A DNA stretch of 24,585 bases from IMG/VR virus record IMGVR_UViG_3300030329_001411, positions 1-24,585 of that record; one strand, 5' to 3'. This document shows positions 1,913 to 21,526 of the stretch, piece by piece. Origin of the DNA: a virus. Position numbers and translations under genes: made by a program. The first letter of the stretch is position 1. Each line of letters starts with the position of its first letter. The notes below the pieces were generated by a model. It saw only the letters and a list, made by a program, of their open reading frames with translations, did not search any database and had not been told where the DNA came from.

Positions 1913-3631
1913 ATGGCAATATATAGGTCGGACCAAGCGCAACTAACTTTTGGTGTAGAAGCTGCCCAAGGAGGTCATCCAGAATTAGCTAGCGCGGTAA
2001 CAGATGGTACTGGGTCAGCAGTAATTAATAATTCAGCTGGATATGCTGCAGGCACAAGAACTCTTACTGTAGACGCTTTATCGGGCATTACAGCTGGTGA
2101 ATTTATTCAAATAGGACCTGAAGTTAGTGGTAGTGGTACTACCAGAGCTTCCGAAGTACGGAAAGTAGAATATGTTGATGGAACAACTGGTCTTACTTTA
2201 GATGCTCCTACGGCGTTTTTTCATCCAGATAATACTAATATTCAAGTAGTAACTGGTGTAACCGACACAGATGGAAATAAATATATTGACCTTATTCCAG
2301 GCGTTTATGAAACTGTAGATTTACCTGATATGGCTCCATCAATTGAGCCTAGATATTTTTTAGGTACTGCATCTAAACGAAACTTTTTTGCTGCATATAG
2401 TGGACAACAAACTTATACAGGTTCCATAGGAGGCTTTGTACTTTTAAACGGAAAAGCTTTAAGATTTCCAATAGGACAAGTAGCTACTTCAACTGCTTTT
2501 GTAAATACAGCAGGTTCAAGTAATGACCCTAGTTATGGGGCAATGATTAATGGCGCAGTAAAAAAAGGTGATGTTCACGTAACGGTAGATGCTGCATTTG
2601 GGAGCATTGTTCAAAATAGCTATATAGTTTTTACAGGGTCAACGACACAAGCGACCGAATCTAGTTCTACCTCAGAAGTACGACAACATATAGGCGCAGA
2701 CTCTACAACTGCTTTGCTATTAGACTATCCTCTTCAATTTGACCATGCTGATGATGAATTTGTATATCTTGTAATGACTACGGATGGGGGAACTACTGTA
2801 GCAACTCCCTCTAATACTGTAGCTACTTTTACTCACGCAATTACAGAAAAAACGGATTTAGATTCTGTCACTTGGCATGCTCATATGCGAGCTTCCGACG
2901 AGGATGCGGATAAAGATTTTGACCGCCGATATTATGGTGGAAAAATTGGAAGTGCTTCTATTTCGGCAGAAGAAGGCGGATTGGTCACAATGTCATGGGA
3001 CGGAGTACAATTTTTAGGCATGATAACCAACCAACAATATAACACAGGATTTTCAAGTAGCACCAACCATCCTTTTTATTCTTTGATGCAAAAAATTGAT
3101 AGTGATGATGTAAATTTCCCAACAACAGACCCATATTATTTCTCACAAGGAGAAGTATCAATGTTTGGGCAAACAATTGCCCGATTACGTAACTTTACTC
3201 TTAGTATATCTAATGGTGAAGAAGCGCGATATTATATACAAAAGCAAATGGGACGCCGTAAGGGTCCCGTAGAGACAAAAGAAAATCGAAGAGAATATTC
3301 GATGTCAGCTACTATTGCATTACCAGATGCACTAACTTCAGCTAGTACTGCTGCAAGAACACTATTTACCGAAATGTTACTAGAAGGTGACTACGGTTCT
3401 GGAAAAGCTGGTTTTAATATAACGTTAACCTTTACACGAGGAACTAACGATACTATTACAATTACAATTCCAGATGATGGTAGTGCAGGTACGGGGGGCA
3501 ATAACCAAGGAGCTTTCATACGAAGCGCGCAACATGATTTTGGGGGAGACAACCCATTCCAAGTTGATGCAGACATTCTTTTCCGTAATATGAAGATAGA
3601 CGTAGTAGATTCAGAGCATTATTACCCATAA
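1913..3631 (+). CDS. Major tail tube protein with inserted beta modules
   Basis: A 572-residue structural protein preceded by the strongest ribosome binding site of the region (GAGGAGG), as expected for a gene whose product is needed in many copies. It has no signal peptide and is rich in Gly, Thr, Ser and Asp. Residues about 125-190 and 300-460 read like a tube-forming beta-barrel protein (for example SASISAEEGGLVTMSWDGV, then RLRNFTLSISNGEEARYYI). Two similar modules are inserted at residues about 41-113 and 212-287, each with a strand-turn-'G..I.....FI.IG' pattern matching modules in the giant hub/fibre protein. Tube proteins are often 150-350 residues; the insertions account for the extra length and would probably face outward. 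Position between the terminator candidate and the tail chaperone supports the call. Confidence 0.65.
   Translation: MAIYRSDQAQLTFGVEAAQGGHPELASAVTDGTGSAVINNSAGYAAGTRTLTVDALSGITAGEFIQIGPEVSGSGTTRASEVRKVEYVDGTTGLTLDAPTAFFHPDNTNIQVVTGVTDTDGNKYIDLIPGVYETVDLPDMAPSIEPRYFLGTASKRNFFAAYSGQQTYTGSIGGFVLLNGKALRFPIGQVATSTAFVNTAGSSNDPSYGAMINGAVKKGDVHVTVDAAFGSIVQNSYIVFTGSTTQATESSSTSEVRQHIGADSTTALLLDYPLQFDHADDEFVYLVMTTDGGTTVATPSNTVATFTHAITEKTDLDSVTWHAHMRASDEDADKDFDRRYYGGKIGSASISAEEGGLVTMSWDGVQFLGMITNQQYNTGFSSSTNHPFYSLMQKIDSDDVNFPTTDPYYFSQGEVSMFGQTIARLRNFTLSISNGEEARYYIQKQMGRRKGPVETKENRREYSMSATIALPDALTSASTAARTLFTEMLLEGDYGSGKAGFNITLTFTRGTNDTITITIPDDGSAGTGGNNQGAFIRSAQHDFGGDNPFQVDADILFRNMKIDVVDSEHYYP
2033..2251 (+). 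repeat. Beta module copy 1 in the tail tube protein (residues about 41-113)
   Basis: Pattern: TLTVDALSGITAGEFIQIG, then a charged strand and 'TGLTLDAPTAFFH..NT.IQVV'. It resembles the hub/fibre modules but lacks their 'TRG..GT.AA.H' end. Confidence 0.45.
2546..2773 (+). repeat. Beta module copy 2 in the tail tube protein (residues about 212-287)
   Basis: Pattern: KGDVHVTVDAAFGSIVQNSY, then 'SSTSEVRQHIGADSTTALLLDYPL.F.H.DDEFVYLV'. It parallels copy 1 in the order of strands and in the EVR step, and is set in the middle of the tube fold. Confidence 0.4.
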
Positions 3632-3664: not shown

Positions 3665-4054
3665 ATGGCTACAACTAGTAGAACTAAAAACGCGTCATCA
3701 TTTGACGTGTCAAAATACCAGATTACCGACAGCACCAAAGTAGAGACTGTTACTATTGAAGAAACAGGTGATACTTTTGAGATTACCATAAAACCGTTAA
3801 GCTGGGCGCGTAAAAATAAACTTCTTTCCGAACACCTTACATGGGACAATGACGGCAATACAGCATTTCAAAGCGCAGAATATGTTCGTGCTTCTTTGAG
3901 AGAAATGATTGTTGATGCTCCTTGGGGTAAAACAACGGAAAGTTTTTTAATTTCTATAGATAGTAGATTAGGTAATGCTTTAGAAGCCATAGTACCTAAA
4001 GCATTTGATGGAGACGATAAAGAAGAAAGTGCATCAAACGTAAAAAAAGAATAA
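3665..4054 (+). CDS. Tail assembly chaperone, short (G-type) product
   Basis: The zero-frame 129-residue product. It has a disordered Ser/Thr-rich start, a beta strand pair (VETVTIEETGDTFEITIKPL) and helices, and an acidic/Lys tail ending in VKKE. This is the usual size and place of the lambda gpG-type tail assembly chaperone, made just before the tape measure protein, which it binds in the cytoplasm during tail assembly. The start is set by a GGAGG at 3656-3660. The last codons run through an A7 slippery stretch, and a -1 shift there gives the longer product listed separately. In this family the short form is made in large excess. Confidence 0.75.
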   Translation: MATTSRTKNASSFDVSKYQITDSTKVETVTIEETGDTFEITIKPLSWARKNKLLSEHLTWDNDGNTAFQSAEYVRASLREMIVDAPWGKTTESFLISIDSRLGNALEAIVPKAFDGDDKEESASNVKKE

Positions 4055-4275
4055 GAGTCTTTCTATCGGGAGTAGGAAATCTACAACCAGGGGAAAGACT
4101 TATTTTTAATTATTGGGGGATAATTTTAAATTTACTTAAACTAGGATTACCTTACGATGTAATTATGAATTTTTCCGAAGCAGAATTAAATATAGTGTTA
4201 GCGTACGAGCAAGCCATTGCGGAAAGAAATGAAGAAGAGCGACAACGACAACAACGCATTGCGAATAATGGATAA
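3665..4275 (+). CDS. Tail assembly chaperone, long (GT-type) product by -1 programmed frameshift
   Basis: If ribosomes slip back one base on A AAA AAA (4042-4048), translation continues from AGA at 4048 through 75 more codons to TAA at 4273-4275, giving about 203 residues. The extension reads coherently (ERLIFNYWGIILNLLKLGL, then PYDVIMNFSEAELNIVLAY) and ends in a Glu/Arg/Gln-rich helix. This matches the T part of G/GT chaperones: hydrophobic helix, a 'D.i....E.e...l..y' segment, charged tail. It has no start codon with a ribosome binding site of its own and ends 5 bases before the tape measure gene, which itself lacks a clear Shine-Dalgarno and may be translationally coupled to it. The -1 frameshift in this gene is widely conserved in dsDNA tailed phages (Xu, Hendrix and Duda). 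An assembly indel in the A-run is the alternative. Confidence 0.8.
4042..4101 (+). promoter_or_regulatory. -1 frameshift signal: slippery A7 plus downstream stem-loop
   Basis: The heptamer A AAA AAA (4042-4048, in zero frame gtA AAA AAA) is a legal X XXY YYZ slippery site. Six bases later a stem starts: 4055-4064 pairs with 4092-4101, with eight Watson-Crick pairs in a row (AGTCTTTC with GAAAGACT) flanked by one G-U pair at each end. A small inner hairpin GTAG-GAAAT-CTAC (4072-4084) sits in the loop. The spacing is in the range that favours -1 slippage, and the zero-frame stop (4052-4054) lies in the spacer. Confidence 0.8.
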
Positions 4276-4280
4276 TAAAT

Positions 4281-5786
4281 ATGCCTTCACAAAAAATAGA
4301 AGTAGAAGTTAGAAATCAAGCGGGGAGCGATGTTTCACGCGCAGATAAAGAAACTCGCAAGCAAGTTAAAAAACAAACCGAGTATGCTAAAGAAGCTGAA
4401 AAAGTAAGAGAAAAAAGTGCTTTACAACAAGCAGGAATTAGTTTTTCTTTAGGTTCAGTTTTAAAACAATCTCAGGTATTTACTAGCACGATTGGTTCAA
4501 TATTTCAATTGTTAGGAGCTTTAGTTGACGTTATATTAGCTCCGTTTTTACCTATTGTAGTTCCCGCTATTAAAACGTTAGCTTCATTTATTCCTAAAGT
4601 AGCAAAATACGCTAGAGAATCTGCTGAAATTGCTATACCAAGAATTAAAGAATATTTATCGCCTGTTATAGATGCTTTAAAGAAAATTTTTAATATGGAA
4701 GAAGGCGGATTTTCAGATTTATTAATGGCTATCGGCAAAATTATTGTTGATTTTGTAACTAAATTTTTACCATATATTGCTACGTATATAACTGATAACA
4801 TGGATAGGTACATTGCCGCTGCGTCAGATTTTTGGGATTATTTAAAAAATGAAATACCTATTTTAGGTACGATAGAAACAAATATAAGAAACTTATGGAC
4901 TTCAATTACGGAATGGAAACAAAAAAACTTGCCTTGGCTAGAAAGTACAGAAAACGCCCTTTCTGGGGCACTTGAGTATTTGGGCAATTTAGCAGCTTGG
5001 TTAACTACTGGCGGCGGATATGATATGGGCGTTAAAGCCCTAGGCGTTGAGCTTGAAAATATAGGGGAGTTTATAGAGGCAGTAGGGGAGTATATTGGAA
5101 AAACTATAACTAATTTAGAAGATAATATTACACAATATTATAGTTGGTTTACAAAAGAATTTCCTAAATATATGGTTCTTGTCAAAGACTTAATGTGGGC
5201 TGTTTCAGGGGATTTCCAAAAATTCTTTACAGGTTTTGGCGTCGATGTTAAAGCTATATTTGAAGCGTTCGGAGATGATTTAGAATATGTGTTTAGTGGT
5301 TTAGGTAATATTGGAAGTGTTGTTGCTGAGGCTATAACGGTAGGTTTACACAACTATTTTAGCTTTTGGGCAGATAATAAGTCAGTTAGCATGAAACTCT
5401 GGGAAAATGGTTTTGACAAAAGCAAACTCTCACTACCTGGAATAGCTATGGATGCTTTAAATACTGCATTATCCAATTCACGCACAGCAAATGTGACAAA
5501 AAATGTTGGAAGTGGGGTTTACGGATTTGCCCCTCCTCCAGGACCTGTAGGCATGAAGGATAACCCTCGGCCAGGGTACGAAATGAGCGAAGAAATGAAA
5601 GAATTTCTTCGCATGTTTGGAAGACTCCCATTATTAGTTGGTGGTACTGAAGCATATCAATCATGGGACATTAAAGATAGGCAACGTTATACCGAACAAC
5701 GAAACCATAATATGCAAATTGATAAAGGCGTATTTGCGCGAAGCCATGATATTTATGGCGAAGACAGCCATCACGGCTGGATGTAA
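4281..5786 (+). CDS. Tape measure protein
   Basis: A 501-residue protein directly after the tail chaperone, the defining place of the tape measure gene. Residues 18-50 are a highly charged helix (Lys/Glu/Arg). Residues about 71-105 are strongly hydrophobic (IGSIFQLLGALVDVILAPFL), as is about 143-172; hydrophobic stretches of this kind are typical of tape measure proteins. Most of the rest is predicted helical with many Trp/Phe/Ile residues, and a Pro/Gly-rich linker near residues 415-430 leads to a polar tail. By the usual rule of about 1.5 angstrom per residue it would set a tail of about 75 nm, short for a siphophage. The ATG has no good Shine-Dalgarno, so translation probably relies on coupling to the frameshifted chaperone ending at 4275. 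No lytic domain is seen. Confidence 0.75.
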   Translation: MPSQKIEVEVRNQAGSDVSRADKETRKQVKKQTEYAKEAEKVREKSALQQAGISFSLGSVLKQSQVFTSTIGSIFQLLGALVDVILAPFLPIVVPAIKTLASFIPKVAKYARESAEIAIPRIKEYLSPVIDALKKIFNMEEGGFSDLLMAIGKIIVDFVTKFLPYIATYITDNMDRYIAAASDFWDYLKNEIPILGTIETNIRNLWTSITEWKQKNLPWLESTENALSGALEYLGNLAAWLTTGGGYDMGVKALGVELENIGEFIEAVGEYIGKTITNLEDNITQYYSWFTKEFPKYMVLVKDLMWAVSGDFQKFFTGFGVDVKAIFEAFGDDLEYVFSGLGNIGSVVAEAITVGLHNYFSFWADNKSVSMKLWENGFDKSKLSLPGIAMDALNTALSNSRTANVTKNVGSGVYGFAPPPGPVGMKDNPRPGYEMSEEMKEFLRMFGRLPLLVGGTEAYQSWDIKDRQRYTEQRNHNMQIDKGVFARSHDIYGEDSHHGWM

Positions 5787-6428: not shown

Positions 6429-9400
6429 ATGCCTAGTCCTTCAATTAGATTAGATTATTTTGATGGAACCAATTGGGTTCAAGCATTAACACACGCTAAT
6501 TCTAATGCAGTTTTAAGTTGTGAAATTGAAAAAACAATAGATGCGCCTGGAATAGCATTGCTTTTGTTAAGTAACCGTTCTCAAAATTATTCTTCAACAA
6601 CAACTAGCAAAAGCGCATCTAATAGCTCACAAGGTAAATTAACAGGTATTTTTACGGAGTTTATGGATTGTAGACTTAGAGATGAAGAAACAGGCACAAT
6701 GCTATATAGAGGTCGCGTTGTTGAAGAACAAAATCAATATAGTTTACAAGCAGGAAGCACAATACGTCTACGGTTACGTGAAGTGTCTGCAGAATTAGCA
6801 GATTATGCGTTAGATAATGCTCCAAACAGCTTAAAAGCTATTGATATTGAAACGAGTAGCCAAACCCCTGACACTCAAAAACGAAGTGGGGTAGTACAAA
6901 AAATTTTAAGTACTGTATCGTCTAATTTTGATACGGATGATACAAGTAAATTTGAAGCTTCACAAGTAGCCTTTACTGAGAACGAACGAACAACAGGCGA
7001 AAAAACTTCTAATAATAAAGATGCCTTAGATATTACAAAAAGCGGAAAAGGGCAATTACTACGAACTATTCACGCACTAGCTATGACAGACCCACATAGT
7101 GCGACTGACAATAAACATTTTGGGTATGATTTTTACGTAGACCCTAATATTACAAGCTTAGTATCTACACATAATCCAAATGTGGATTTTAATTATTTTA
7201 GGCGCGGAACTCGTCCTGGAGTAGGAGGTAGCACATCAGCAGACCCTACTAAATATGGGGTAACAATTGAGTATCCCTCAGCTGGGTGGGGAGGACAAAC
7301 AAACTTTAAACGAGCCATGTTAAGTGATTGTGAATTTGATTCATCTACTGCTGAATTATATACTTCTGTTATTGCGCATTATACAGAAACTGCTGTATTA
7401 GATTCAGGCATGAATACTCAATATGAAAATATTGCAAGCTTTGAAATTTTACCTGGAACAATTGTAGGAGCATTAGATTGGTCAGGTAAGCGATTAACAT
7501 ATATAAAATTTCAAACTCCTACAGGTACAGATAAAGAAGCAGAAGCAACAAATCCATTATTGTTATATAGAGCTAATCCAGCAACGGCGTTAAATGGGGC
7601 TATAAATGCTAGCGTAACTTCAGTTGTAGTTGATTCTGTAACTGATTTTGTTGTAGGGCAAATTATAACCGTAGATAGCGAAAAAATGACCATTACTGCC
7701 ATTAATACGTCTACAAACACCTTTACTGTTACACGTGCTTCTAGTAGCACAAGTGCTGCAAGCCATAGTGACGATGCAACAGTTACAGGCACAGTTGTAA
7801 ATCCTTGCGCAACTTTACATTATCAAAGCGGTACAGGGTCTTCTCAGTATATAATTGTTTCAAATATTTATGATGAAGCCACAACTTATCAGTTTACTAA
7901 TTATACAGGATTAACTTTTGACCCATTTCCAACATCTTCAAGCAGTACAAGATTTTTCTTAACAGCAGGTACGGCGGCTTCCTCTACAGCAGCTACTCAA
8001 CTAAATGAGGCGTTAGATGATAGCGAAACAGCTGTTGATGTTGATTCTGGGGCCGTTTTTGCGGTAAATCAAATAATTACTTGCGAATCGGAACAAATGT
8101 TAATTACAGCAATTAGTACTAATACGTTAACTGTAACACGCGGATATAACGGAACAACTGCTGCTGCTCATGATGACGATACAGCTATAACAGGTTATTA
8201 CATAGATTTGACCCCAAGTACAGCTCGACGTAAAACCAAACTGTCATACGTAAAACCTTATAGGTTAGAATCGCGAATAAATATAGCGCGAGATGCAATT
8301 AGAGATGAAATTATTAGTCTTTTAGATACAACTTCTACAGGCCAAATTACACGGGCAACTGTAGGTACGGTTAGGTATCCATATGTTAAATTAGAATCAG
8401 CAGCTGCAAATGTTAGTCGAAGCAGTAACGTGTTAACGTTTGCTACGGCACCGACAGCAACAACTCAAATTAACATGGCAGGAAATATTAATACTAGCGC
8501 TACAGAATTAGTAGTAGATTCAGCTTCTGGTTTTAGCGTTAATGATATTATTGTTTGTGAAAACGAACAAATGCAAATTACGGCTATTGACTCAAATACT
8601 TTTACAGTAAGTAGAGGAGTAAATAGTACCACAGCAGCCTCTCATAATGATAATACGGCAATTACAGGAGTTGGAGCATTTACACCTGCTGATGGCACGT
8701 CGCCTGGAAATAATCCTTTATCTTACGGGGTAAAAGTAGGTATGTCTGTAGCTGAATTATCAACATCTGGAAAAACTGTAACTCGTTATGCTTATGTTTC
8801 TGCGGTAAATAGTACTACTATTACATACGGCGCGTCTGCTACGGACACTAGTGACGGCACAGCTTTAGACGCTAGTAAACCCATAGCTGTTTATATTCCT
8901 AGTGAACCTGGGCATTGCGTTCAAGTTAAAAATAATTTATGGAATAAAAATTATAAAGTTTTATTATCAAGTATACGTTATTCGTTAAATAATGGGGTGT
9001 TAACTACTTATTTAGATGGGTATGGCTTAGATATTAATGATGAAGGTATTCCTGCAACGGTACCTTCAACTAAACCGATAGATGTAGATTTTCCCAGCAC
9101 ATTATTATCTGGTGGAACTTTTTGGTCTATTTCTAATGGCAAAATTCAAGCTGGGCATAGCAGTACAGCAGCCGATAATTACAAAACTGTAAAAGTTACA
9201 GCAAATGATGGAACTTCATCTACAGTTACGTTAATTACGCATCCTGATGGTAAAAGTTATATTTTAAAAACGGGTAATTATGACATAAGTGGTAGTGGAA
9301 ATACTGCTAATCAATGGCATACTTTATTTTTACGACCTTTAGCGGAACAGGATTTGACAAATTTAACTAATGACCATCAATCCTTACAAATAGTAGCTAA

Positions 9401-12188
9401 CGCTTCTAACGGGAACGAGACATTATATACTGATATATCTGATTCAGGGGATATTATTTTAGGGCGAGCTAAAACAAACGTAACTTTATCGGCTACTGAT
9501 GATACAACGTTAAACGGGGGCACACCTGATTATGAGGGGTTAGCTATATTAGAATTAACTAATAATGTTGGAGCAATTGATGGAGAACAAGGGTTTTCAA
9601 TTAGTGCAGCAGGCGGGTCTACTAATCAATTATTAACTGTAAACTCAGCAGGTTTTCATTTATTTACTAACAGCGGAGGAACGCAAGTAAAAGCTGTTTC
9701 GATGGATAATATGGGCGTTCCAAGAATTACGGTTGGAGATTCACAAGCGCCTGAAAATACGACACAAATTGCAACTACAGGAACGTTATATGCTGTCCCA
9801 TCGCAAAAAACTACGACACTTAATATGGCTGGGAATTTAAATGCGACGGCCACAGAAATCACACTTGACTCGACTGCGGGATTTGTAGCGGGGGATATTA
9901 TTCAAATTGCTACGTCAGGCGTTAACTATGGGTCTGACCCCGAAGTACATGAACAAATTAAAATTGATTCAGTTGACAGCAGTTCAGTATTAACTGTTAC
10001 ACGTAGTTTTAATGGTACAGCAGGTGTTTCATATGTAGATAATGCTAATATTAAAGGATATCAAGGACATAATGAAGCAAAAACTTTTCCTAATATTCCT
10101 TTACAGTTTCATCATAATATTAGTGCGGTATTAAGTGAAACGAGGTCGTCTACACAATTAGCAGAAGCATTGGATAATAGCGAAACTCAGATTGACGTTG
10201 ATAGCACTTCGGGATTTTTAGTAGGACAATATTTTCTTGTTGATAGTGAAGTAATGAAAATTACAGCTATTTCAGGTACTACGCGTTTTACCGTACTTAG
10301 AGGGCAAGAAGGAACAAGTGCAGCTACTCATAATGATAATACAGCGGTTAAAACATGGGTAAATAGTAACTTTGGTCAAACTGCTACCGAGATATATAGA
10401 CAAGGGTATACAATGAGTTCGACTACTTATCAAGATAGTGCTTATAATACAGGAGATAACCCAGGTAGAGGCAGAAACCTTATTATACATGATGATGGAG
10501 GAGAACAACGAAATCCCGAAATTCCAAAAGATTTGACTACAAATTATGAAACTTTACAAGTAGCTTCACGCCTTGTTGCTAATAATTTAGCTATTCAAGC
10601 TCCTAGATTTTATGGGAGTACTTGGGGCACAGGCACAGCTCAATCTCAATTACATCCTACTTATTCTTTTAGCACTGATTTAGATACAGGTATGTATCAA
10701 GAAGCTGCTAACCAACTAGATTGGTCTGTAGGCGGTGTACGTGAAATGACTTTGGTAGGGGATGGCTTAACAATTCACGGCAATTTAACTATTGACGGAA
10801 CCTTTAGTAACACTGAAGCTAGTCAATTTGGAGGCAAAGTAGCATTAAATTTTGATGATGCTGCTTTAACAGCGGACGGTACAACTGCCACATTAGTAGC
10901 TCATTATGGTGGAACTTACTACGCTGGATTTCCTAGAGGAAGACTTGCTCACATACAACCAGGAGATAGGTTATTTATAGATGTAGCCCAACACGCAGAT
11001 AATCATCAAGAAGACATACGAATTACTAATGCTAGTGCTGACGGAACATCAGTTGATATAAGAAGACCAAATGCAGGGGTTACCAGTATTGGCGGAACCA
11101 CTATGAAATTTTTAACAACTGGAACTGATTATACTGCTACTGATACTGTATTAGTAATAAGCACTGATGCGTGGCTAGACCCTGGAAGCACTAGAAGACA
11201 AGCTGAACTTACTGTTGCTGGAACGGGGGAAAAACTTAGAGTTATAAATAAAACAACTGTTGGGAGTGAAGATGCAATAACCGTAGAACGAGGATATATG
11301 GGAACTACAGCAGCGGCTATAACACATAATACTGCGTTTACTGTAGCAAGGTCAGGTTCGTTTTCCGCAGCGTCAGGAACTTATAACAGTCATTTAGAAG
11401 CTTTTCTTGGACGACAATTTGAATGTGGAAATATTTTAGCGCTTCCCTTTAACCAATTACTTGATAACGATGCTAGTGCGGATTATAATCCAGGCACTCT
11501 TGCTGGCACAACGGTAGGGGCTGATAGATATTTGTGTGATATACGTCCCGCGTATTCTTTTCAACAGGACCAAGGCGCAGGAATGTGGTTAATGACCACT
11601 ACCACTGGTAATATGCTAGGTTTTACAGTAGGTGGTACGGAACTATTAAGCGTTGGATTTAATGGAAATATAGCTTCAGAACATGCTGCCAAATTATATA
11701 TAGGGCGAAATTGGGAAGGCGCTACAAATACAGGAAATACATACCATGAAGTAACAACTATTGTGCATGGTAATATAATTCCTGACCGAAATGGAACTAT
11801 GAGTAGTGGTCCTGCCCAAAGTTATACGCACTCCCATACAATAGGCACAAATGCCTATCCGTGGCACGGTTTTTGGTCCGAAAGTAATGTAAACGTAACT
11901 TCTGATATTAGAATAAAAGAAAATATAACAGATATTACTAACGGTCTTGATATAATTATGGCATTATCTCCTATTAAATATAATAAATTAGAAGAAACAG
12001 AAATTGAATTCGGGTTTTCGGCGCAAGATGTTAAAGCTCAATTATTAAATTTAGGTTATTCAGAAGATATATCTATTTATAGTGATGATGAGGATATATG
12101 GTCTTTACAATATGAACAATTAATTGCCCCATTAGTAGCAGCTATTCAAGAGCTTAAAGCAGAATTAGATAAACTTAAAAACGGGTAA
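6429..12188 (+). CDS. Giant tail hub/fibre protein with C-terminal S74 chaperone domain
   Basis: 1919 residues. The first 280 or so look like a tail hub: beta-rich with 'MLYRGRVVEE' and a long linker, positioned after the Dit candidate. From residue 388 on, at least six copies of a 65-80-residue beta module occur (starts near residues 388, 525, 681, 1131, 1244 and 1565) with the pattern 'DS..GF.VG..I..DSE.M.ITAI..NT.TVTRG..GT.AA.H.D.TAI'. Two 'P.YSF..D...GM' fibre motifs lie at about 1409 and 1706. The last 95 residues match the S74 intramolecular chaperone family: SDIRIKENI (Ser1825, Lys1830), LSPIKYN, EFGFSAQDVK, and a coiled-coil end LQYEQLIAPLVAAIQELKAE. In that family the domain trimerises the fibre and cuts itself off using a Ser-Lys pair spaced as here. 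The stop overlaps the next ATG (TAATG). Receptor binding is the likely job. Confidence 0.8.
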   Translation: MPSPSIRLDYFDGTNWVQALTHANSNAVLSCEIEKTIDAPGIALLLLSNRSQNYSSTTTSKSASNSSQGKLTGIFTEFMDCRLRDEETGTMLYRGRVVEEQNQYSLQAGSTIRLRLREVSAELADYALDNAPNSLKAIDIETSSQTPDTQKRSGVVQKILSTVSSNFDTDDTSKFEASQVAFTENERTTGEKTSNNKDALDITKSGKGQLLRTIHALAMTDPHSATDNKHFGYDFYVDPNITSLVSTHNPNVDFNYFRRGTRPGVGGSTSADPTKYGVTIEYPSAGWGGQTNFKRAMLSDCEFDSSTAELYTSVIAHYTETAVLDSGMNTQYENIASFEILPGTIVGALDWSGKRLTYIKFQTPTGTDKEAEATNPLLLYRANPATALNGAINASVTSVVVDSVTDFVVGQIITVDSEKMTITAINTSTNTFTVTRASSSTSAASHSDDATVTGTVVNPCATLHYQSGTGSSQYIIVSNIYDEATTYQFTNYTGLTFDPFPTSSSSTRFFLTAGTAASSTAATQLNEALDDSETAVDVDSGAVFAVNQIITCESEQMLITAISTNTLTVTRGYNGTTAAAHDDDTAITGYYIDLTPSTARRKTKLSYVKPYRLESRINIARDAIRDEIISLLDTTSTGQITRATVGTVRYPYVKLESAAANVSRSSNVLTFATAPTATTQINMAGNINTSATELVVDSASGFSVNDIIVCENEQMQITAIDSNTFTVSRGVNSTTAASHNDNTAITGVGAFTPADGTSPGNNPLSYGVKVGMSVAELSTSGKTVTRYAYVSAVNSTTITYGASATDTSDGTALDASKPIAVYIPSEPGHCVQVKNNLWNKNYKVLLSSIRYSLNNGVLTTYLDGYGLDINDEGIPATVPSTKPIDVDFPSTLLSGGTFWSISNGKIQAGHSSTAADNYKTVKVTANDGTSSTVTLITHPDGKSYILKTGNYDISGSGNTANQWHTLFLRPLAEQDLTNLTNDHQSLQIVANASNGNETLYTDISDSGDIILGRAKTNVTLSATDDTTLNGGTPDYEGLAILELTNNVGAIDGEQGFSISAAGGSTNQLLTVNSAGFHLFTNSGGTQVKAVSMDNMGVPRITVGDSQAPENTTQIATTGTLYAVPSQKTTTLNMAGNLNATATEITLDSTAGFVAGDIIQIATSGVNYGSDPEVHEQIKIDSVDSSSVLTVTRSFNGTAGVSYVDNANIKGYQGHNEAKTFPNIPLQFHHNISAVLSETRSSTQLAEALDNSETQIDVDSTSGFLVGQYFLVDSEVMKITAISGTTRFTVLRGQEGTSAATHNDNTAVKTWVNSNFGQTATEIYRQGYTMSSTTYQDSAYNTGDNPGRGRNLIIHDDGGEQRNPEIPKDLTTNYETLQVASRLVANNLAIQAPRFYGSTWGTGTAQSQLHPTYSFSTDLDTGMYQEAANQLDWSVGGVREMTLVGDGLTIHGNLTIDGTFSNTEASQFGGKVALNFDDAALTADGTTATLVAHYGGTYYAGFPRGRLAHIQPGDRLFIDVAQHADNHQEDIRITNASADGTSVDIRRPNAGVTSIGGTTMKFLTTGTDYTATDTVLVISTDAWLDPGSTRRQAELTVAGTGEKLRVINKTTVGSEDAITVERGYMGTTAAAITHNTAFTVARSGSFSAASGTYNSHLEAFLGRQFECGNILALPFNQLLDNDASADYNPGTLAGTTVGADRYLCDIRPAYSFQQDQGAGMWLMTTTTGNMLGFTVGGTELLSVGFNGNIASEHAAKLYIGRNWEGATNTGNTYHEVTTIVHGNIIPDRNGTMSSGPAQSYTHSHTIGTNAYPWHGFWSESNVNVTSDIRIKENITDITNGLDIIMALSPIKYNKLEETEIEFGFSAQDVKAQLLNLGYSEDISIYSDDEDIWSLQYEQLIAPLVAAIQELKAELDKLKNG
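7590..7790 (+). repeat. Hub/fibre beta module 1 (residues 388-454)
   Basis: Shows VVVDSVTDFVVGQIITVDSE, then MTITAI and 'NTFTVTRASSST'. The Arg-Gly step of other copies is Arg-Ala here. Confidence 0.7.
8001..8195 (+). repeat. Hub/fibre beta module 2 (residues 525-589)
   Basis: Shows LNEALDDSETAVDVDSGAVF, then CESEQMLITAI and TLTVTRGYNGTTAAAHDDD. This is the clearest copy and starts almost like module 5 (LAEALDNSETQIDVDS). Confidence 0.75.
8469..8669 (+). repeat. Hub/fibre beta module 3 (residues 681-747)
   Basis: Shows INMAGNINTSATELVVDSAS, then CENEQMQITAID and VSRGVNSTTAASHNDNTAI. Its start resembles module 4 (LNMAGNLNATATEI). Confidence 0.75.
9819..10058 (+). repeat. Hub/fibre beta module 4 (residues 1131-1210)
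   Basis: Shows LNMAGNLNATATEITLDSTA, then 'GDIIQIATSG', an extra loop of about 12 residues (YGSDPEVHEQIKI) and LTVTRSFNGTAG. The longer loop resembles the tail tube copies. Confidence 0.65.
10158..10352 (+). repeat. Hub/fibre beta module 5 (residues 1244-1308)
   Basis: Shows LAEALDNSETQIDVDSTSGF, then VDSEVMKITAI and FTVLRGQEGTSAATHNDNTA. It is close to module 2. Confidence 0.75.
11121..11355 (+). repeat. Hub/fibre beta module 6, divergent (residues about 1565-1642)
   Basis: Shows TATDTVLVISTDAWLDPG, then 'EKLRVIN' and AITVERGYMGTTAAAITHNT. Only the second half matches the other copies well. Confidence 0.5.
11901..12185 (+). other. S74 intramolecular chaperone domain of the fibre (residues 1825-1919)
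   Basis: The domain starts at the Ser-Asp step of SDIRIK, where homologues self-cleave. Ser1825 and Lys1830 have the +5 spacing of the family's catalytic pair. LSPIKYN and FGFSAQDVK are core family motifs, and a terminal coiled coil follows. Cleavage would release a 95-residue trimeric chaperone after the fibre has folded. Confidence 0.8.
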
Positions 12189-12571
12189 TGCGTACTGATA
12201 AAAAAATTATTAGATTGCGAAAACAGAAACCCTTATTGACGGGCTCAGAAATAAGTCGTAAATTAGATGTATCTCGACAATATGTTTATAAAGTCTTAAA
12301 AGACGCAGGATTACATAATAGGCAACCTAACTATAAGAAAAAAATAGTTTTGTGTTTGGTTTGTGGGGCACGAACTCCGCGTAATCAACAGTTATGTCCA
12401 ACGGGGGATTGTAAGGAAAAATATTTTTATGTGGATGTAGAATGTTCATTCTGCCATCATAAATTTAAATTACAACGAAGTCATGTAATTCAAAGGTACT
12501 ATAGAGGACGGGCACATATTTATTGTAGCCAGAAATGTTACGGTCTGGGACAACGGGATGGTATAAGTTAA
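12188..12571 (+). CDS. HTH and double zinc-cluster DNA-binding protein
   Basis: A 127-residue basic protein. Residues about 17-41 form a clear helix-turn-helix (TGSEISRKLDVSRQYVYKVL). Two Cys clusters follow: C56-x2-C59 with C70-x4-C75, and C86-x2-C89 with C113-x3-C117, each able to bind one zinc ion, the second in an HNH-like or ribbon-like layout without obvious catalytic His-Asn residues. The N-terminal half is very Lys/Arg-rich. It is the first gene after the structural operon (TAATG overlap) and overlaps or abuts the sigma factor gene, so a transcriptional regulator acting with that sigma factor is the natural inference. A degenerate homing-type nuclease is the alternative, because HTH plus HNH-like zinc fingers occur there too. 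The AACGGG before the ATG is a weak ribosome binding site, suggesting translational coupling. Confidence 0.6.
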   Translation: MRTDKKIIRLRKQKPLLTGSEISRKLDVSRQYVYKVLKDAGLHNRQPNYKKKIVLCLVCGARTPRNQQLCPTGDCKEKYFYVDVECSFCHHKFKLQRSHVIQRYYRGRAHIYCSQKCYGLGQRDGIS

Positions 12572-13128
12572 TAGTGGATATTAATGATGAGTTATTAGAA
12601 AAATGGGAACCTAAAGTCCAAAAGTTTTTACAGACCACATTTGTAAATGGTATGGATAGAGATGATATTGCTCAAGAATTGCGCATAGCTATAGTAAAAG
12701 CAGCTGACCATTATGACGCATCCAAAGGCGTGGTTTTTCATACTTACCTTCATACCGTAATGGTTAATACATTAAGAACATTAATTTCTAAAGCCCAAAA
12801 AACTAAAAACGTTAATATTACATACAGCATTGATGGTATGGATGTTGACGATAATCCACAAGGGTTTTTACCTAATGAAATTGCTAATTCATTAGCAGAT
12901 TTAACTGCCTTAGAGTTTATTAACAACGTAGAATTAATGGATTTAATTAAACGTGCTGATTTAACCACTAGAGAACTGACATTTTTAGAGCTACGCTTAG
13001 AAGGAATGACCATGGAATATATTTCAGAACGTTTAGGAGACTCGGCTTATAAAACTCGTAATGCGATTCAAAAAAAGATACGCGCTTTTGTAATAAACAG
13101 AGATTTTGATGAAAAAACGTTTCCGTAA
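12535..13128 (+). CDS. Sigma-70 family RNA polymerase sigma factor, phage-encoded
   Basis: 197 residues from the ATG. Residues about 23-90 resemble sigma region 2: 'DRDDIAQELRIAIVKAADHYD' followed by KGVVFHTYLHTVMVNTLR, the helix pair that binds the polymerase clamp and melts the -10 box. Residues about 142-186 resemble region 4: LTTRELTFLELRLEGMTMEY, then ISERLGDSAYKTRNAIQKKI, a helix-turn-helix. The acidic linker between them is short and regions 1 and 3 are missing, as in compact ECF-like factors. The start is unsure. The ATG at 12535 overlaps the upstream gene by 37 bases without a ribosome binding site; a GTG at 12574, two bases after the upstream stop and with a distant GGGATGG, would give 184 residues and loses nothing sigma-like. 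It probably directs host polymerase to viral promoters. Confidence 0.75.
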   Translation: MLRSGTTGWYKLIVDINDELLEKWEPKVQKFLQTTFVNGMDRDDIAQELRIAIVKAADHYDASKGVVFHTYLHTVMVNTLRTLISKAQKTKNVNITYSIDGMDVDDNPQGFLPNEIANSLADLTALEFINNVELMDLIKRADLTTRELTFLELRLEGMTMEYISERLGDSAYKTRNAIQKKIRAFVINRDFDEKTFP

Positions 13129-16279: not shown

Positions 16280-18211
16280 TTGTTAGTTAACACTGACATA
16301 TTATATGATGAGGTTATAGAAAACTTAATCACCTATCCTACATGGTGCGTGGACGTAGAAACTGATGGTTTAAGCGTCGATGCGGGAAATCGGCTGTGTG
16401 GGATAGGGGTTTCTATAAGCGAAACATCGGGAGATATTAAAACTTTTTATTTTCCGTTTAGGCATAACGCAGGTCAAAATTTAGAGCTAACTTATTTAGA
16501 TGATTTGTTAACAACTATGAGTTGTAGGACTCATTTAATAGGCTATAATTTAAAATTTGATTTACGTTTTTTAGAAGAGGATGGTTTAGATTTACGATAT
16601 AAAACGTTGATTGATACTATGTTATTAGTAAGGCTTACGGCTCATTCTGAAGTCCGAGATTTTGGGTTAACAAAAACCATTAAGCGTTTATATGGCGAGG
16701 AAGAAGCGCAATATGAACTTGAGATGAAAAAAGAATTGAGAAGAGAACTTGCTAAATTAGACCCACCTGTTAAAACTTCTAGTGGGAATTATTCATTAGG
16801 CTCTGTAGAGCTTATTGGTCCTTATTGTGAAAAAGATGTATATTATACGTATAAACTTTATAACGAATTATTACCTAAAGTTGAGTCTAGCGGGCAATTA
16901 GATGTATTACATATGCAATATGATTTGACGCGGGTATTATATGAAATGGAATGTACAGGCGTTAAGATTGATACGGACTATGCGCAAGAATCTATTAACA
17001 AAGTTAAAGACCAGCAGGCTAGAGTTGAACAACAAATTTATGCTTTAGTTGGCAAAGAATTTAATATGCGCAGTACTGTTGAATTAGGAGAAGTATTCCA
17101 TGAGCTAGGAATTTATTCTAGTTTAAAAACGCAGAAAGGCGCAGAGTCGTGGAGTGAGAAGGCCTTAAAAGAAATTGACCATCCACTAGCTATTTTAATA
17201 CGGCAATATAGAGCTCTGTATAAGTTATCTTCAACTTATTTAGAACCTTATCTTGAAACTGAAATTTTACATACATCGTTTTGTAATTGGGGAACCATAA
17301 CGGGGAGATTATCGTCGAGAGAACCGAATTTACAAAATATTCCTAGAACCCACTTTAAGTTAGAAAATTTAGATTTAGATGTTACTACTACACAAGACGA
17401 TTGGGGCTTTAAAGGCGAAGGGTACTATGATGAAAAAGACCCTACGCAAGTAGCAATGCGACGTTTGTTTATTCCTCGCGAAGATTATCAATTTGTTAGT
17501 TTTGACTATTCGCAAATGGAAGTTAGAGTGTTTCTTAGCTATTTAGATAATCCTGAAATGCAGGACCTTTTAAATCGAACGGATGTAGATTTTCATAGTG
17601 AAACAGCTAAAATTGCATTTGGCTCAGACGAAACGCATCCAGAATTTAAAGAACATAGACAAATGGCGAAAAGCATTACCTTTGGCATTATGTATGGAAT
17701 AGGTACTTGGTTGTTATCTCAACAAATGCAAACTACTATGCCTAAAGCTGCTCAATACAAAAAACGGTATTTAGATAGCATTACAGGGGCGAAAGAATTT
17801 ATTGATGGCGTGGAAAAGGCGGTAGAAGATAGGGGCTGGATTAAAAATAGATATGGACGGGTATATAAAGTTTTACCTGAATTTAGTTACAAGGGCGTTA
17901 ATTATTTGGTACAGGGGACTAGTGCCGATATTCTTAACGAACGTTTGATTGAAATTTCGGAATTTTTAGCAGATAAGAAAAGTCGAATGCTTTTACAAGT
18001 ACATGATGAGATTATTTTTGAAATACATAATACCGAAATGGATAGTATTATTGAGCCTATTGTGAATTTAATGCAATCAAATAGTCTTAATATACCTTTA
18101 TTTGTTGACCAAGAAATTTGTACACCGTCATGGGCAAATAAACAAGATGTTCAGGATTGGGTACAGAGCAGAAAAAGTGATATTAGCCAGTATATTGACT
18201 GGGATATATAG
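16280..18211 (+). CDS. polA: DNA polymerase I family A with 3'-5' proofreading exonuclease
   Basis: 643 residues, without the 5'-3' exonuclease domain of cellular Pol I. Exonuclease motifs: Exo I VDVETDG (Asp25, Glu27), Exo II GYNLKFD (Asn90, Asp94), Exo III YCEKD (Tyr182, Asp186). Polymerase motifs: A FDYSQMEVR (Asp409), B RQMAKSITFGIMYG (Arg460, Lys464, Phe468, Tyr472), C VHDEI (His575, Asp576, Glu577). All catalytic residues are present. Phe468 matches Phe762 of E. coli Pol I. Between NLQNIPR and RRLFIPR about 35-40 extra residues (about 356-393, DDWGFKGEGYYDEKDP) are inserted in the palm; family members usually have a short turn there. The start is TTG directly after the SSB stop in the same frame; no ATG exists before Exo I, and the ribosome binding site is poor, suggesting reinitiation. 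Confidence 0.9.
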   Translation: MLVNTDILYDEVIENLITYPTWCVDVETDGLSVDAGNRLCGIGVSISETSGDIKTFYFPFRHNAGQNLELTYLDDLLTTMSCRTHLIGYNLKFDLRFLEEDGLDLRYKTLIDTMLLVRLTAHSEVRDFGLTKTIKRLYGEEEAQYELEMKKELRRELAKLDPPVKTSSGNYSLGSVELIGPYCEKDVYYTYKLYNELLPKVESSGQLDVLHMQYDLTRVLYEMECTGVKIDTDYAQESINKVKDQQARVEQQIYALVGKEFNMRSTVELGEVFHELGIYSSLKTQKGAESWSEKALKEIDHPLAILIRQYRALYKLSSTYLEPYLETEILHTSFCNWGTITGRLSSREPNLQNIPRTHFKLENLDLDVTTTQDDWGFKGEGYYDEKDPTQVAMRRLFIPREDYQFVSFDYSQMEVRVFLSYLDNPEMQDLLNRTDVDFHSETAKIAFGSDETHPEFKEHRQMAKSITFGIMYGIGTWLLSQQMQTTMPKAAQYKKRYLDSITGAKEFIDGVEKAVEDRGWIKNRYGRVYKVLPEFSYKGVNYLVQGTSADILNERLIEISEFLADKKSRMLLQVHDEIIFEIHNTEMDSIIEPIVNLMQSNSLNIPLFVDQEICTPSWANKQDVQDWVQSRKSDISQYIDWDI

Positions 18212-20840: not shown

Positions 20841-21018
20841 AGAATTTGACAGTCACGGGTTATTAGATATATCAACTAAAGCAGAGATTGTGATTCGTGG
20901 GTTACGTTACGCGGTTTTATATCAAGATATAGATACATTACGAAAATGCGTAACTGATTTACGCAATTGTGTATTAGATATGAATGAAATAGTAGAGGAA
21001 GAGTTTGGCCGAGAATGA
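20833..21018 (+). CDS. Small helical protein, unknown function
   Basis: 61 residues, probably a helix pair (TKAEIVIRGLRYAVLYQDI and DTLRKCVTDLRNCVLDMNEI). The second helix has Cys at positions 39 and 46, one face apart. AGGAGG gives a strong start, and the end overlaps the RuvC-like gene by 14 bases. Not recognised; possibly a subunit working with the neighbouring helical protein. Confidence 0.6.
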   Translation: MAKEFDSHGLLDISTKAEIVIRGLRYAVLYQDIDTLRKCVTDLRNCVLDMNEIVEEEFGRE

Positions 21019-21526
21019 AAGTAATTGGCAGATTTTTCAAGATTTCCCTCCAATTGTATATATGGGGATTGACTGTTCATCTAAAGCAGTTCATGCGGTA
21101 CTAGTAGATTCTACTGAAACCGTAATTGCACAAGGAAAATGGGCGTCAATTAATAAAGATTTTAATATCAGAAGTTTGGAAATTGCTCGAAAATTTGCCA
21201 AAGATTTGAGTAAAATAAAAGTAGAAATAGAAGCTGCTGTAGAGGCAGCTATATTTATTCAAAATCCTAGAGCGACTATGGAGATTGCTGGGGTTGTGCA
21301 GACCGTTAGAGTGTTATGCGACCAGCGTACTATTAACTGTATTCCAGTCGATAATAGACATTGGAAAAAGTATATTTTAGGTAAAGGTAATTTAAATAAA
21401 CAGGCTATTAAAGAATTTACAGTTGATAAATGGGGAAATATTTTTTCGGAACAGGATTGGTGTGATGCATCCTGTATAGCATTATGGATTAAACGTAAAT
21501 TTACAGGGGAACTTTTAGAACTTTAA
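21005..21526 (+). CDS. RuvC-like Holliday junction resolvase
   Basis: 173 residues from a TTG start with GAGGAAG 4 bases upstream; an ATG at 21062 with no ribosome binding site would remove only 19 residues before the fold. The RNase H-like core is visible: YMGIDCSSKAVHAVLVDS (Asp23 on strand 1), an 'AAVEAAIF' strand with Glu80, and a C-terminal 'QDWCDASCIALW' with Asp151 and Asp154 where RuvC has its last acidic pair. These residues would bind two metal ions. In phages such enzymes resolve branched DNA before packaging, which suits the position between recombination genes and the terminase. Sequence identity to RuvC is weak, so the call rests on the acidic pattern. Confidence 0.65.
   Translation: MAENESNWQIFQDFPPIVYMGIDCSSKAVHAVLVDSTETVIAQGKWASINKDFNIRSLEIARKFAKDLSKIKVEIEAAVEAAIFIQNPRATMEIAGVVQTVRVLCDQRTINCIPVDNRHWKKYILGKGNLNKQAIKEFTVDKWGNIFSEQDWCDASCIALWIKRKFTGELLEL

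Follow-up and report, generated by a model that had tools for sequence, protein, structure and literature searches.

A probable lambda-type G/GT tail-chaperone pair, made by -1 frameshifting at a slippery site next to an RNA hairpin, in an uncultivated tailed virus

In phage lambda, gpG and the rarer gpGT, present at a ratio of about 30:1, bind the tape measure protein, and the T part recruits tail tube subunits (PMC5009743). A -1 frameshift between the tail chaperone genes is a widely conserved feature of long-tailed phages and is also known in haloarchaeal viruses (PMC5009743; PMC8211752). Stem-loops located 5-9 bases past the slippery site are textbook stimulators of the shift (PMC8211752, PMC5009743), and software dedicated to the prediction of such frameshifts is available (PRFect; PMC10885494).

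The stretch of DNA analysed here (the window) is the linear viral DNA of IMG/VR record IMGVR_UViG_3300030329_001411, 24,585 bases long, the source of which is an uncultivated, probably marine tailed virus. The features of the locus of interest, all on the plus strand, are as follows.

1913 to 3631, plus strand: probable tail tube protein (Pfam Phage_tube_2, E 0.002, under the curated cut-off; gene order)
3665 to 4054, plus strand: G, the zero-frame product, a predicted tail assembly chaperone of 129 aa (PHROG, predicted fold, position)
4042 to 4048, plus strand: slippery heptamer A AAA AAA in -1 phase (in-phase heptamer at all 79 related loci)
4048 to 4275, plus strand: T extension, with 75 codons in the -1 frame and a stop at 4273-4275, giving a GT fusion of 203 aa
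4052 to 4054, plus strand: zero-frame stop TAA, one codon past the heptamer
4055 to 4101, plus strand: stem-loop with arms 4055-4064 and 4092-4101, after a 6-nt spacer from the heptamer (compensatory changes in the window's clade)
4281 to 5786, plus strand: tape measure protein (phrog_305, tail length tape measure protein, E 2.7e-7)

We consider this locus, with a probability of roughly 94%, to be a lambda-type G/GT tail-assembly-chaperone pair made by -1 ribosomal frameshifting. The slippery site, the open and conserved -1 frame, the chaperone fold, the gene order and the covariation of the stem at clade level form the basis of this reading, and from them we infer the occurrence of slippage, its rate, the effect of the stem and the functions of the two products. 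In such a scheme most ribosomes would finish G, and a small share would slip by -1 at A AAA AAA, bypass the TAA one codon on and yield GT, with the hairpin 6 nt downstream probably raising the slip rate in the window virus and its close relatives. If the analogy with lambda holds, the tape measure protein would be bound by many copies of G and few of GT, and the T domain would recruit tail tube subunits.

On this reading, the two systems share a single start with two products and a low-level -1 slip near the end of G, as well as the flanking tail tube and tape measure genes, with T ending just before the latter; in the window, the match of the gene 5' of G, probably the tail tube gene, is weak. 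The window differs from lambda by its A AAA AAA site (that of lambda is G GGA AAG), by the strong hairpin adjoining it on the 3' side and by the lack of any detectable sequence relation between the T parts. The arrangement is the familiar one of lambda, and the understanding of the frameshift mechanism is unchanged; the novelty is confined to the addition of a member that lacked annotation and whose RNA hairpin is unusually clear. The A-rich heptamer followed by a stem-loop at 5-9 nt also recalls the frameshift sites of insertion sequences (A AAA AAG type; PMC5009743, PMC8211752), which however lie in another gene and serve another purpose, and no kinship is claimed.

In the zero frame G ends with GTA AAA AAA GAA TAA, whilst after the slip the -1 frame reads AGA ATA AGA GTC and stays open from 4048 to 4272, with the ATG of the tape measure gene (4281) coming 5 nt past the T stop. 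Such a long open frame is exceptional in the window: only the heptamer at 4042-4048, among the 63 in-phase X XXY YYZ heptamers in its ORFs, opens more than 33 codons in the -1 frame, and none of the positions wholly within these ORFs has 75 open -1 codons. Moreover, 4055-4280 is the sole intergenic gap longer than 60 nt in the window. The original prediction of this frameshift had placed an in-phase run of seven A's, both stem arms, an inner hairpin, 75 open codons and the 5-nt gap, and we reproduced all of its coordinates. The T half would be missed by ordinary gene calling, and its recovery adds 226 nt of annotation to the window virus.

When G was used as a query of viral contigs, 79 related loci were found in IMG/VR, amounting to 66 distinct sites including the window, or 56 once near-copies were removed, and the T half is likewise recovered for this family of 56. 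An in-phase slippery heptamer lies 3-15 nt 5' of the G stop in 79/79 relatives, and past this stop the -1 frame is open for 63-88 codons in every one of them, the +1 frames being mostly short. Homopolymer errors are common, and a miscounted A-run could in principle split one continuous gene in two, or the open frame could be there by chance. However, all 79 other contigs, which come from many samples, show the identical split at the identical position, and a fused single frame occurs in 0 of 79. The retention of heptamer and extension throughout the relatives excludes both sequencing or assembly error and chance, to which we assign a negligible probability. Two findings had been named beforehand as speaking against a frameshift, an A-run length that puts both parts in one frame and relatives that lack both the slippery site and the open -1 frame; neither was encountered.

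Runs of 7-9 A's in nearly all relatives would suit slippage at transcription, in which RNA polymerase adds or drops A's within the run and the resulting mixed mRNAs encode G and GT, this being the route of some insertion sequences (PMC5009743). The heptamer is A AAA AAA throughout the relatives, with the exception of L013 (A AAA AAC), which has six A's, and of L026 and L089 (T TTA AAA), with A-runs of only three and four, and yet the -1 extension is retained in these loci. For polymerase slippage, seven A's make a short run. What stays constant is the phase of the tandem-slip heptamer, needed by ribosomal slippage only, and the T TTA AAA sites, which have no long A-run, argue for ribosomal over transcriptional slippage, leaving the latter very improbable.

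A slightly smaller probability still goes to a separate T protein made by termination at the G stop and reinitiation. A start of the TAATG type, i.e., an in-frame ATG that overlaps the G stop or abuts it, is found in 15/56 distinct sites (e.g., L012, L015, L020, L021), and in a few further sites an ATG or GTG lies three bases earlier. Such a start is missing from the window and from most relatives, the first ATG, GTG or TTG in the window's -1 frame being codon 40, and it is the heptamer that is universal, not the start codon. Lineages with TAATG could additionally make free T by reinitiation.

Ribosomal frameshifting between G and T also agrees with what G seems to be. Its sequence matches a PHROG of tail assembly chaperones (E 6.5e-5), and 38/55 family members match phrog_25860; weak matches to PF08890 (Phage_TAC_5) in 17/55, with a best E of 0.0028, are too weak for a Pfam assignment. 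An AlphaFold2 model of G built from 55 sequences (pLDDT 74.5) matched tail assembly chaperones in a viral structure library searched with Foldseek, including those of Haloarcula hispanica tailed virus 2 (HHTV-2; E 8e-7) and Bacillus phages. The same tool found no significant match for the model in the PDB, and a sequence search of solved structures returned chance matches only. Comparison of the model to solved structures with VIA-align gave as the top two the Bacillus YqbN/XkdN-like protein (YqbN, 3klu; PF08890) with a Z of 7.7 and the HK97 chaperone (2ob9) with 5.8; a Z below 8 is weak by itself, but both are structures of the expected family and agree with the sequence evidence. The fold of G aligns with them across 89-95 residues, but at 9-12% identity. 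The identity of G as a tail assembly chaperone is hence supported by its profile matches, its position and its predicted fold, and with it, and with the heptamer and -1 frame of every relative found, the original proposal of a G/GT chaperone frameshift stands.

The nearest named relative of G is gp47 of HHTV-2 (tblastn E 2e-3, besides the Foldseek match). In this virus gp48 lies in the -1 frame and overlaps the end of gp47, but it is larger than T and separately annotated. Unlike the window, HHTV-2 is a high-GC haloarchaeal virus, and no canonical heptamer was seen at the end of gp47. The -1 frame is open across the gp47 end (L091, 3202-3800), and a non-canonical frameshift may join gp47 and gp48.

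The T extension carries a conserved core, [FY]xYW...LLK.GI.W..I...S..EI...LG, and its AF2 model is all-helical, with four helices and a mean pLDDT of 94.5. Substitutions between close pairs, which are not independent of each other, number 330/200/503 at the first, second and third codon positions of T. The pattern is that expected of a translated -1 frame, which, by this and by the conservation of the protein, behaves as a translated and selected protein. T proteins are very divergent; searches of T against Pfam, PHROGs and, by fold, BFVD gave scattered weak matches only and detected no known T protein, and T alone as a query of viral contigs retrieved no relatives, these being reached via G. 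The extension may be called T-type by its position and frame, and to this extent the original label holds; homology to lambda gpT, however, could be shown neither by sequence nor by fold.

Past the heptamer, the window's stem has 10 pairs, eight Watson-Crick and two G-U, and encloses in its loop a 4-bp inner hairpin (GUAG/CUAC). The minimum free energy of the stem-loop is -20.0 kcal/mol (z -4.3 vs dinucleotide shuffles), and its 6-nt spacer falls within the 5-9 nt range of stimulators. When the T protein is kept and its codons are synonymously recoded, however, the window's own stem stands out only to a modest degree (p about 0.03), and it is its context in the clade and in the family that makes it convincing. 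The clade formed by the window with L012, L013 and L014, which is supported, has 95% of cells paired, three doubly changed pairs and a covariation of 0.417 vs at most 0.167 for slid partners; in a second clade of nine, with another register, 96% are paired and covariation is 0.242 vs at most 0.091, both sets being small, with 14 and 9 of 500 shuffles covarying as strongly as the real sequences. Across the family, stability just 3' of the heptamer reaches p<0.05 with redrawn synonymous codons in 36% of sites, vs 3% in a downstream control stretch. Long helices whose 5' arm starts 2-13 nt past the heptamer are found in 20-27% of relatives, vs about 0-11% elsewhere, in a sharp peak.

The frameshift could be real and the hairpin nonetheless incidental, arising only because the encoded protein carries the motif [AV]-F-L ... 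E-x-x-L. The modest p of the window's stem under recoding would fit this, as would the fact that most relatives manage without the stem. We regard this as unlikely, though by no means as remote as the alternatives to ribosomal slippage discussed above: it sits poorly with the compensatory changes at clade level, with a helix peak exactly at the position of a stimulator, and with the 17/56 sites that have a helix below -12 kcal/mol, where 4.0 are expected from synonymous recoding. We take the hairpin to be a probable enhancer of slippage in the window and its near kin. The original view of the stem-loop as a specific stimulator gains from the covariation in the window's clade, but it does not extend to the family, in most of which the stem is absent or different, with several registers. 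Such absence indicates that the stimulator role is not general, nor the stem an obligate part.

On the tree, parsimony calls for no fewer than 8 gains or losses of strong stems, a count that varies with the energy cut-off, and 3 of them are forced by well-supported branches. With a near-invariant heptamer and a hairpin repeatedly gained, lost or re-registered at a fixed distance from it, it is tempting to speculate that lineages tune the G:GT ratio by swapping hairpins under the same protein code. We hold this only tentatively, as a possibility with the odds somewhat against it; were it true, the tuning might perhaps serve tail length or the host ribosome. The contrast of a patchy hairpin with a slippery site that does not vary is the one point that specialists may want, and this natural series of sites, with one heptamer and varied hairpins, should be useful to gauge the weight of the hairpin in phage tail genes.

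We rejected the idea that all relatives share one stem register, since in 14 mixed sequences the pairing of the window did no better than a slid one. Just past the G stop, L074-L088, a separate clade, have a 10-13 bp stem with a GATCGAT-like sequence, in a register unlike that of the window.

As to the virus itself, a search of 84,980 genomes of bacteria and archaea found no relative. Elsewhere in the window, 6429-12188 encodes a tail fibre-like protein of 1919 aa with a Peptidase_S74 intramolecular chaperone at its C-terminal end (E 6.5e-11); repeats of the form '...ITAI...TFTVTRG...' occur several times inside the protein. A protein with sigma-70 region 2 (12535-13128; Pfam E 6e-12) adjoins an HTH protein (12188-12571); as a virus-encoded sigma factor, it hints at a bacterial host. 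To such a host point, taken together, this protein, PolA, a DnaB-like helicase and a DnaG-like primase. The longest ORF of the family A DNA polymerase (16280-18211) begins with a TTG right at the stop of the preceding gene (16279), and a RuvC-like resolvase (21005-21526; a weak match, E 0.0045) has its TTG start inside the gene before it.
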